This document shows, piece by piece, positions 1,859 to 4,451 of a stretch of DNA of 64,000 nucleotides. Location of the stretch: positions 567,399 through 631,398 of the forward strand of contig JANQOQ010000008.1 in the NCBI GenBank assembly GCA_028285755.1, in the 5' to 3' direction. Positions within the stretch are counted from its first letter, which is position 1. The number at the start of each line of letters is the position of its first letter. The notes beneath the pieces are model-generated. The model was not told where the DNA came from. It did no database searches and saw nothing but the letters and a program-made list of their open reading frames with translations. This DNA comes from Puniceicoccaceae bacterium. GTDB taxonomy: Bacteria > Verrucomicrobiota > Verrucomicrobiia > Opitutales > JAFGAQ01. The translations under genes and the position numbers were made by a program.

Positions 1859-2947
1859 TTAGGTTATTAGCCCTGAGTAAATCTTCAGATTGGCATCTAC
1901 CATGTTCTCTACGGAGAACTCGCTTGTTGCAATTTCGTGGCCACGCTCACCCATGGCAGTGCGTTTTTTGGGATCTTTTATCAAAGTTTTAAGTGCGTTC
2001 TGCAGTGCAGGTACATCACCGGGTGTTACGAGCAATCCATTCTCGCCGTCTTTCACAATTTCGGGGATGCCGCCCACTGCACTGGCAATGATGGGTACTT
2101 TGCAGTAACTGGCCTGGATCAAGGAAATCCCCAGCCCCTCCATCAAAGCGGGATGTGCGAGAATATCCAACTGCGGCATCACTGCCAGCAGATCATCTAT
2201 AAATCCAACGAACTGCACGACATTCTGTAGGCCGAGTTCTGTCGTTTGCTTTTCTAAGTTTTTCAGTTCTGCACCTTTTCCAAAGCACAGAATACGCAGT
2301 TGCGGGTGTTGAGAGATGAGCCCGGCAGCGGCCTCGAATAAAAACCGATGGCCTTTACGAGGTATCAGTTGTGCAGCGAGCCCTACCGTCAATGAATTCT
2401 CAGGTAGACCGAATCGCTTAAGAAAATCTTCACGAGTAATAGCATCGGGTGCTTCTGAAAAATCGTAGGCGCTTCGGGCGAGACGCAGCTTATCCTCTGA
2501 AACTCCTTGGCTGAGCATGACCTGCCGGATACCTTCGGATATAGTGATGATGCGTGAGTAGGGCGCATATTTCCATTTGCAGAGCCAGGGTGGTTCGGGA
2601 TTGTCCACGCGGCGCGAAATCACTGCAGGGATTCCCATTGCTCGGGCTGCTCTGCCGCCCCAGGTATCGGCTCCACGACGACTATGGATGTGGAACAGGT
2701 CGGGCTTATACTCACGCAGAATTTTTTTGAGTTTTCCTGGTATGCTCAGATCCATATCTCCGCCCATTTTGATAGGGTACACGTGGATACCCGTATCTTC
2801 ACAAGCCTTGCGGATCGCGCTGCGGGAATCGCAAACCAATGCGCATTCATGCCCCCTTACATTGAGATGCTTGAGTAAATAGAAGACTTGGAGTGCCCCT
2901 CCGTAGAGGTTTTTACCGGCTTCGATGTGTAAGGTCTTGACGGACAT
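1859..2947 (-). CDS. Glycosyltransferase family 4 (GT-B fold)
   Basis: The 362-residue protein has the two-Rossmann GT-B layout. The N-terminal acceptor domain has a Gly-rich loop (KNLYGGALQVFYLL, about residues 13-26) and an IHSRRGAD segment. The C-terminal nucleotide-sugar domain has GLAAQLIPRKGH (about 191-202) and HPALMEGLGISLIQAS (about 273-288). The usual E-x7-E pair is only half kept, because the second Glu is Gln. It is the last gene of a minus-strand run hisF - GT9 - GT4, so a role in lipopolysaccharide core or another surface glycan is likely. Donor and acceptor cannot be told from sequence. A mobile-looking GxxExxY cassette sits only 6 bases before its ATG and has probably replaced its native upstream region. 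Confidence 0.88.
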   Translation of the reverse strand: MSVKTLHIEAGKNLYGGALQVFYLLKHLNVRGHECALVCDSRSAIRKACEDTGIHVYPIKMGGDMDLSIPGKLKKILREYKPDLFHIHSRRGADTWGGRAARAMGIPAVISRRVDNPEPPWLCKWKYAPYSRIITISEGIRQVMLSQGVSEDKLRLARSAYDFSEAPDAITREDFLKRFGLPENSLTVGLAAQLIPRKGHRFLFEAAAGLISQHPQLRILCFGKGAELKNLEKQTTELGLQNVVQFVGFIDDLLAVMPQLDILAHPALMEGLGISLIQASYCKVPIIASAVGGIPEIVKDGENGLLVTPGDVPALQNALKTLIKDPKKRTAMGERGHEIATSEFSVENMVDANLKIYSGLIT

Positions 2948-2953
2948 TTTCTA

Positions 2954-2980
2954 GACAGGATTTACAGGATCGATAGGATT
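2954..2980. repeat. Left inverted repeat of the GxxExxY cassette (three ACAGGAT-type units)
   Basis: Three successive 9-base units: ACAGGATTT, ACAGGATCG, ATAGGATT(T). The first is preceded by G. This is the inverted counterpart of 3355-3380, with 21 of 26 positions matching. On the coding strand of the cassette it also encodes the Pro/Asn/Val-rich tail (NPIDPVNPV) of the out-of-frame C-terminus. Confidence 0.8.
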
Positions 2981-3030
2981 TTTTTGAAGATACTTGCGTT
3001 TAACTTCCACCTTGGCCTCCGCGAAGTTGA

Positions 3031-3345
3031 TCATAATCCGATATTTGTTTTTGTGGCAGTCAGGTAGTTTACAAGCTGCAGTTCATGAATCGAGGTCAGG
3101 TTCTTAACTGCCTTAAGCTCTACTATTAATTTATCCTCAATAAATAAGTCTGCGATGTATTCACCTACTACAAAGTTATCATAATACACTTGAATAGGGA
3201 ATAGGGATTCTAGATTAAAACCGTGTTTTTTCAGCTCAATTACTAATGCTTTTTCATAAACTGATTCGAGAAAACCAGAGCCGAGATTGTTATACACTGT
3301 ATAAGCGGCACCAATGATTTTCTCGGTTATTTCTTCATATAGCAT
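3031..3345 (-). CDS. GxxExxY protein (PD-(D/E)XK nuclease-like), C-terminus frameshifted
   Basis: The 104-residue product belongs to the GxxExxY family (PDDEXK_3). It has the name-giving GSGFLESVYEKAL (residues 22-34) and the nuclease core ADLFIEDKLIVELKAV with an Asp and E-x-K in the expected spacing. The usual protein is about 125-135 residues. Here the frame stops right after TNIGL. A shift of one base lets it continue as INFAEAKVEVKRK and on to NPIDPVNPV, ending at 2951, exactly what the family has there. So one base has been lost, or there is a sequencing error. The catalytic core is intact, so the short form might still fold. The gene sits between inverted CAGGAT repeats and splits a glycosyltransferase operon. 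No substrate is known to me. Confidence 0.88.
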   Translation of the reverse strand: MLYEEITEKIIGAAYTVYNNLGSGFLESVYEKALVIELKKHGFNLESLFPIQVYYDNFVVGEYIADLFIEDKLIVELKAVKNLTSIHELQLVNYLTATKTNIGL

Positions 3346-3354
3346 CAGGATTGC

Positions 3355-3380
3355 ATCCTGTGAATCCTGTTGATCCTGTC
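3355..3380. repeat. Right inverted repeat of the GxxExxY cassette
   Basis: Three ATCCTGT units in a row (ATCCTGTGA, ATCCTGTTG, ATCCTGTC), the inverted partner of 2954-2980. Just inside it, 3346-3360 forms a small hairpin, CAGGAT-TGC-ATCCTG, that starts one base before the GxxExxY start codon. Confidence 0.8.
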
Positions 3381-3389
3381 AAAAATATA

Positions 3390-4451
3390 CTAAGCGAGGA
3401 GTTTTATTGCCGTTTCGAGGACTTCAGCAGGTGTGATGCTTCGCAGGCAGGTGAAAGCGCCGTTGCAGGTAGGATGGCGACGGCAGGGGGAGCAGTCCAT
3501 CTTGCGATAGATCACCTGGGTCCGCGGAGTTCGGGTATTCAGGTAAGGCACGGTGGAGCCGAAAAGCGCAATCGTAGGTCTTTGCTGCGCTATGGACATA
3601 TGTGTCATCCCGGTATCCATACCAATGCTGAGATCCGCATGACCGATCAACGAGGCCGCATCCGCAATCGAGAGGCAATGCTCTCCCGTCAAATCCATGT
3701 AGCTTTCTGTATTTGAGATAGGTCCGATGATGCGCTTTGCGGAGGCATCATCCTTGGGTCCCCCAAGTATAAGCACTCTTTTGCCGGTCTTTTCATGAAG
3801 TTGGGGTATGAGTGTAGACCAGTAATCTTCAAACCAATGCTTCTGCGGGCGGGTTGTAAAAGGAATTGCTGCGATAAATCCATCCTGCAGTCCATTCAAC
3901 GCCAGAAATGACTCAGTCGTTTTCTGTTGCTCAGGCGAAAATAGCAGCTGCATAGGGAAATTGCCCACTTTTAGTCCTAAGGCCAATGCGAGATCTCGAT
4001 ACTCGGCATTGATATCCATATCATCCAGTCGACGAGGCACGACTTGATGCATCAGATATTGACTCCCTTCTTTTGAACCGAGACCGACGCGATATTTCGC
4101 TCCGCTCGCTTTGGCAACCCATCCGCTCTTGAGGAGCCCCTGCATGTCAATGGCGAGATCAAATTCGTAGTCCTTTAGCTGATTCTTGAATTGATTCCAT
4201 TCACCCAGGAATCGCCCCCATTGATTCGTTTTGCTAAGCTTTCGAAAGCGTTTCTTCGGGAATTCGATAACCTCCTCAATATGGGGGTTATTCTTAATCA
4301 ACCCCACTGATTCTTTTTGAGTTAGCCAGTAGAGTTTCGCATCCGGATAGCGGTCCTTCAACGGTTGAATGAGTGAAGTGGCAAAGACATTATCTCCGAT
4401 TGCACTGAGTCGGATCAGCAAAATACTTTTTGGGCTTTCGGGGAGTGGCAT
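3390..4451 (-). CDS. Glycosyltransferase family 9, ADP-heptose:LPS heptosyltransferase type
   Basis: The 353-residue protein has the GT9 signatures. An N-terminal nucleotide-binding start (ILLIRLSAIGDNVFA) is followed by DLAIDMQGLLKSG and GLGSKEGSQYLM. The C-terminal donor-site block DLSIGMDTGMTHMS is followed by PTIALFGST, and a Cys-containing end (CSPCRRHPTC) is common in this family. Members move a heptose from ADP-heptose to the inner core of lipid A-core on the inner face of the inner membrane. Its ATG is 7 bases from the stop of hisF, so the two are co-transcribed. Whether it is a WaaC-, WaaF- or WaaQ-type enzyme cannot be decided here. Confidence 0.9.
   Translation of the reverse strand: MPLPESPKSILLIRLSAIGDNVFATSLIQPLKDRYPDAKLYWLTQKESVGLIKNNPHIEEVIEFPKKRFRKLSKTNQWGRFLGEWNQFKNQLKDYEFDLAIDMQGLLKSGWVAKASGAKYRVGLGSKEGSQYLMHQVVPRRLDDMDINAEYRDLALALGLKVGNFPMQLLFSPEQQKTTESFLALNGLQDGFIAAIPFTTRPQKHWFEDYWSTLIPQLHEKTGKRVLILGGPKDDASAKRIIGPISNTESYMDLTGEHCLSIADAASLIGHADLSIGMDTGMTHMSIAQQRPTIALFGSTVPYLNTRTPRTQVIYRKMDCSPCRRHPTCNGAFTCLRSITPAEVLETAIKLLA

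Follow-up and report, generated by a model that had tools for sequence, protein, structure and literature searches.

A small nuclease gene bounded on both sides by inverted arrays of short repeats probably represents a widespread, small chromosomal insertion unit, in which the unit's own nuclease is predicted to recognise the ends and to serve further units that lack the gene or carry other cargo. We would give this reading a probability of about 60%. The gene was found in a Puniceicoccaceae bacterium (GCA_028285755.1, contig JANQOQ010000008.1, positions 567,399-631,398), and this 64 kb stretch of DNA is referred to here as the window. The cassette is located between two glycosyltransferase genes and comprises the following features, with their neighbours:

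1859..2947, minus strand: neighbouring glycosyltransferase GT4, whose start codon (2945-2947) adjoins the left array
2951..3034, minus strand: C-terminal continuation of the nuclease in another frame, MINFAEAKVEVKRKYLQKNPIDPVNPV followed by a stop, overlapping the left array (from sequence; compare L074)
2955..2979, plus strand: left array, ACAGGAT TT ACAGGAT CG ATAGGAT, three units with period 9 (from sequence)
3031..3345, minus strand: GxxExxY nuclease gene (PF13366/TIGR04256), 104 aa, with a frameshifted early end (open reading frame and profile match)
3355..3379, minus strand: right array, read on this strand as ACAGGAT CA ACAGGAT TC ACAGGAT, three units with period 9 (from sequence)
3390..4451, minus strand: neighbouring glycosyltransferase GT9 (heptosyltransferase family), whose stop codon (3390-3392) adjoins the right array

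An earlier note on this DNA had described three CAGGAT-type units on each side, inverted and tightly spaced around a single gene, and the sequence bears this out. There are 7 bases from the GT4 start codon to the beginning of the left array and 10 bases from the end of the right array to the GT9 stop codon. On the forward strand the right array reads ATCCTGT-GA-ATCCTGT-TG-ATCCTGT, and the inverted arms match at 21 of 26 positions when the outer G is counted. The cassette class is defined by inverted arrays of like units on either side of a GxxExxY gene, and the window copy has both. Neither ACAGGAT-type arrays (with up to 2 mismatches) nor arrays of the general type described below were detected elsewhere in the 64 kb window, and first-order Markov sequences of like composition gave 0 such arrays in 60 trials. 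Across the 4.25 Mb genome there are just four ACAGGAT arrays with 0-1 mismatch, two of which are the window pair.

The enclosed gene matches PF13366 (E 9.5e-36) and TIGR04256, 'GxxExxY protein' (E 5.8e-35), passing the curated cut-offs of both profiles (123.2 bits vs 22 and 120.2 bits vs 35, respectively). The single gene is therefore present as had been claimed, with one correction: its open reading frame (ORF) is truncated by a frameshift near the C-terminus. The ORF stops at ...TKTNIGL, and the near-invariant C-terminal LINF region is shifted to another frame (3034-2951). Since the complete domain, including the LINF region, is not contained in the ORF, we class it as a frameshifted member of the GxxExxY family. 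The ORF still encodes the catalytic E, D, ExK and QxxxY. The closest relative found, L074 from the same family, is a sister protein that has the LINF region in frame and is also bounded by ACAGGAT arms. Because of the frameshift, the window copy, which has the ACAGGAT type of its subfamily, may have lost activity.

One further GxxExxY gene is present in the same genome, between genes that read from sequence as a histidine kinase and a response regulator. Its inverted arms, TCTCACAAAGGCACTAAGACACAAAGAT on both sides, match at 28 of 28 positions and are unlike ACAGGAT. Two ACAGGAT-type arrays without a gene are also found (L004 and L006). Thus, a single genome contains different unit types as well as gene-less arrays. 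The array in L004 (1499-1526) is situated amid phage-like-looking genes, and the one in L006 (1500-1610) precedes a panB-like gene and has a ...GAT-type array some tens of bases away.

As the earlier note had proposed, the flanks of other GxxExxY genes were compared. PF13366 is carried by 25 of the 52 genomes examined from the family and order, and ~90 copies were scored for the best inverted repeat between their flanks, with windows shifted off the gene as controls. The median score was 22, compared with 10 in shifted windows, and scores of at least 16 were reached by 73 of 87 GxxExxY genes vs 1 of 116 shifted controls. For 80 loci drawn across phyla from the GTDB species collection, including Chloroflexota, Acidobacteriota, Planctomycetota, Cyanobacteriota, Bacteroidota and Pseudomonadota, the medians were 23 and 11, and 62 of 71 loci scored at least 16, compared with 8 of 277 shifted controls. 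In a separate count, periodic 7-mers were present on both sides at 99/170 loci vs 3/575 shifted windows. The arms mostly consist of three units of the form CRCNRAK with a period of 8-11, and the general arm, read from outside to inside, is (A)ACC RC NRAK nn CRCNRAK nn CRCNRAK. Inverted arms are accordingly carried by most GxxExxY genes, and the array-bounded arrangement recurs in more than 10 phyla.

Phage records gave no match and plasmid records 8 of 72,556, which indicates that the units are mainly chromosomal. A scan of IMG/VR returned no relative with the second copy of the own genome as query and one with the A2 alignment. Several GxxExxY genes (L050, L089, L090, L115, L118 and L119) contain stop codons or are shortened, as decaying selfish genes would be.

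A structure model of L194 is confident (pLDDT 95.4) and positions the invariant E, D, ExK and QxxxY (E23, D63, E73xK75 and Q87xxxY91) on a helix-strand-strand-helix core. We take this core, together with the motif E...D...ExK...QxxxY, to be typical of RecB/Cas4 nucleases, and in the model the invariant residues of a RecB/Cas4-type PD-(D/E)XK motif fall on the expected helices and strands. Foldseek gave weak matches, the first to Cas4 SSO0001 and another to Cas4-like ACE1 (E 0.13-0.7, TM 0.39-0.47), and no significant sequence match to GxxExxY was found among solved structures. Although the order of the motif is shared with Cas4/RecB nucleases, GxxExxY proteins differ in that they are ~125 aa long, have no significant sequence or fold match to them, and are not adjacent to cas genes at the loci read. 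PADLOC matches, Cas4-like ones among them, were weak (E 0.002 or worse), and the gene was not classed as a defence system.

The type of repeat unit follows the nuclease. A tree of 99 nucleases requires 7 changes of unit type, where the minimum would be 3 and the shuffled mean is 26.5; a value as low was seen in 0 of 200 shuffles. All but one of the 72 proteins in the AG clade, which spans at least 12 phyla, are paired with ...AG units, and the window gene and L074, which share ACAGGAT arms, form a supported sister pair. Arm similarity increases with protein identity both between genomes (Mantel r 0.36; 0/2000) and across phyla (r 0.20; 7/2000). A later element, L278, departs from this in the final letter of its unit: its units end in AG, although its nuclease resembles the non-AG subfamily. 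Because unconstrained DNA would not stay alike at ~50% protein identity, we infer that the unit is constrained jointly with the nuclease protein. The variation of unit sequences among nuclease subfamilies had not been foreseen in the earlier note.

Arms were also sought apart from the gene, using a pattern that finds nothing when reversed. They occur in 25 of the 52 relatives, and 22 of these 25 have PF13366. In a phylum-wide set of 241 genomes (136 PF13366 carriers and 105 others), which are not independent of one another, at least 3 arms were found in 125/136 carriers vs 16/105 others (odds ratio 63), and the median number of arms per genome was 27.5 with PF13366 vs 0 without. At least 5 arms were nonetheless found in 12 of the 105 PF13366-negative genomes. 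The contrast is also visible within genera: in one (code g78), the genome in which the gene is present (G070) has 25 arms and the other listed genomes have 0-2. Many arms form gene-less inverted pairs, 70-150 bases long and located between genes, and the ratio of gene-less arms to genes reaches 60 to 1 (G010). When gene-less arms were compared by type with the nucleases of their own genome, agreement was modest (rank 20 of 720). The earlier note had counted widespread repeats without the gene as grounds for abandoning its proposal; gene-less arrays are indeed common, but mostly in genomes that carry the gene. Its view that nuclease and repeats go together is supported by this concentration of arrays and by the way in which unit type follows the nuclease tree. 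Separately, a TA-flanked MITE of ~150 bases with an arm-like pair inside is present in ~20 copies in G041 (L203-L209), and since its near-identical arrays are located inside this element, they are uninformative on cassettes.

Genes other than the nuclease are also found between like arms, which the earlier note had not foreseen either. They include a potassium channel gene (L257), small membrane and secreted ORFs (L220 and L221) and perhaps one for AlbA_2 (L270). In L257 (7600-8200, from G041), the 3' end of the gene upstream of a GxxExxY cassette recurs as a 35-base direct copy after the cassette, and next comes a second cassette, whose like arms enclose the ion channel gene. Such cargo would be expected if the cassettes were shifted by another mover (e.g. 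a Y1 transposase) and GxxExxY were merely one frequent passenger among others. We consider this unlikely, however: across phyla, the kind of unit goes with the nuclease subfamily, arms are found mainly where the genome also has a GxxExxY gene, and no other common gene was observed beside the arms.

Matching gene junctions were compared among congeneric genomes, with genes named by reading the flanking sequence. DNA identity among the congeners compared is ~70-97%, and junctions are rarely clean, with the sister site often holding other content. Between metK and ahcY, a 445-base GxxExxY cassette in G266 (L278) corresponds to 32 bases in G023 (L279) and to a period-7 pair without a gene in G041. 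A junction of gatA-gatB type contains a GxxExxY cassette in G041, a gene-less period-7 pair in G266 and another ORF in G023. Before alaS, where the flanks of G035 and G050 are 92-94% identical, the site is occupied by a GxxExxY cassette in G035 and by a PF05635 cassette, with its own inverted arrays, in G050. Between pheS and pheT, G266, G023 and G041 each have a different arm pair, one of which encloses a small membrane ORF. As the same junctions are occupied differently among congeners, these sequence comparisons show, between species, that the divergence of the species compared was followed by gain, loss or exchange of units. This difference and the arms of most GxxExxY genes tested both support the proposal that an insertion unit ends in these repeats. 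An empty site was seen for one other copy (metK-ahcY in G023) and not for the window copy, as GT4 was not found beside GT9 in the four family members examined. The ends showed no constant target site duplication; one 35-base duplication lies beside the L257 cassette.

The arms could instead be operator sites through which GxxExxY or another protein regulates, with the gene-less pairs as its regulon. Their location between genes fits this explanation, as does an annotation in Geobacter metallireducens, where tandem 7/8-mers that occur in pairs, one on each strand, are listed as putative binding sites of global regulators (PMC2700814). The Geobacter sites (classes 1-3, Aklujkar 2009) likewise consist of three to five tandem 7/8-mers paired on opposite strands, and the class 2 consensus TCTCCGTS[Y] is the CACGGAG type here (PMC2700814); they differ in being interpreted as regulator sites, and the main text and figure legends make no link to GxxExxY. 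However, the sites described here are not conserved among congeners, in which the same junctions have different arms, other cassettes or nothing. Genes are enclosed by arms on both sides, and the catalytic nuclease centre is invariant. We rate regulation as slightly less probable than transport by another mover.

In the same genomes, PF05635 genes (four-helix-bundle, 23S IVS protein) have inverted arrays on both sides, with a period of 7. Flank identity at lag 7 is 0.66 vs 0.41, and inverted-repeat scores of at least 16 were reached by 20/28 vs 1/110. These arrays differ from those of GxxExxY genes, which was again unforeseen in the earlier note, and this suggests two parallel element classes, GxxExxY and PF05635. 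The PF05635 loci L223-L252 and L256 (about 970-1520) are outside rRNA and have period-7 inverted arrays like GGGTTCTGGGTT and GGCTAGTGGCTGGTGG.

The geometry of the arms bears on whether they are read as DNA or RNA. Within an element, the two arms have the same spacer length in 90% of cases and 92% unit identity; when the comparison is with other elements of like unit, these values are 40% and 83%. Spacer bases agree between the two arms in just 56% (control 36%). Among arm differences on the sense strand, 235 keep and 271 break G-U wobble pairing, so there is no bias. Since spacer lengths are kept, spacer bases are freer and a wobble bias is absent, the arms are probably read by a protein. 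Intrinsic terminators were also considered and rejected, as A-rich bases rather than T-runs follow the inverted arms (judged by eye).

The least probable alternative is an RNA element like the 23S rRNA intervening sequence (IVS), the arms pairing in the transcript and RNase III removing the stem so that insertion into an operon is tolerated: small ORFs within inverted arms inside operons resemble the IVS, and genes for the IVS protein PF05635 have inverted arrays too, but the missing wobble bias argues against a paired stem, as do spacer bases that diverge far more than the units at conserved spacer lengths, a pattern expected of protein readout. In Coxiella, the 23S rRNA IVS is excised by RNase III (PMC4990558). 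The IVS with its S23 ORF (PF05635) and the window cassette share a small ORF within inverted repeats; they differ in the protein and, for PF05635 arrays, in the period of 7, and the window copy is outside rRNA, between glycosyltransferase genes, with PF13366 as its ORF.

If the cassette is an insertion unit, the nuclease would bind the type of unit that matches it, at either end, and would nick or cut the DNA at the arrays. The cassette would then be copied or moved into intergenic sites, probably helped by host repair. Units that share these ends but have no gene or a different cargo would be served in trans. REP sequences and the RAYT transposase that serves them would work by the same logic, although neither their enzyme nor their repeats are related to those described here. 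In REP/RAYT systems (REPtrons), the gene for a Y1 HUH REP-associated tyrosine transposase lies between inverted short repeats, and gene-less pairs are scattered. Shared with these systems are a chromosomal gene for a DNA-cutting enzyme (here a predicted nuclease) within inverted short repeats, gene-less pairs, and a repeat type matched to the enzyme. In contrast, the GxxExxY enzyme is of the PD-(D/E)XK rather than the Y1 HUH type, its unit is non-palindromic and its arrays are usually three spaced direct 7-mers; PF13366 is the sole gene in the window cassette, with no Y1 HUH gene between the repeats. MITEs and insertion sequences also include short, inverted-ended, gene-less units scattered between genes, but here the ends are arrays of degenerate units that vary in sequence by copy, with no transposase of a known class and no constant target duplication seen.

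No literature linking tandem-unit arrays to GxxExxY was found in a search that missed most subscription papers and all preprints, and an earlier description may therefore exist. A text search of the literature with six array sequences gave no match. The name GxxExxY does occur (e.g. as a passing entry in a domain table), and no treatment of its role was found in the literature search.

We tentatively raise the possibility that these elements constitute a new class of prokaryotic mobile element, present in at least 12 phyla, in which the sole protein would be a Cas4/RecB-like nuclease that reads the end arrays and carries itself into operon junctions, along with gene-less copies and other small genes, alongside the parallel PF05635 class of period 7. 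A great many genomes have annotated GxxExxY proteins, for which no role is known, and the link to the arrays offers a candidate substrate for each subfamily. If the interpretation is true, it would explain common intergenic repeats that were earlier taken as regulator sites and would show a route by which small genes enter operon junctions.
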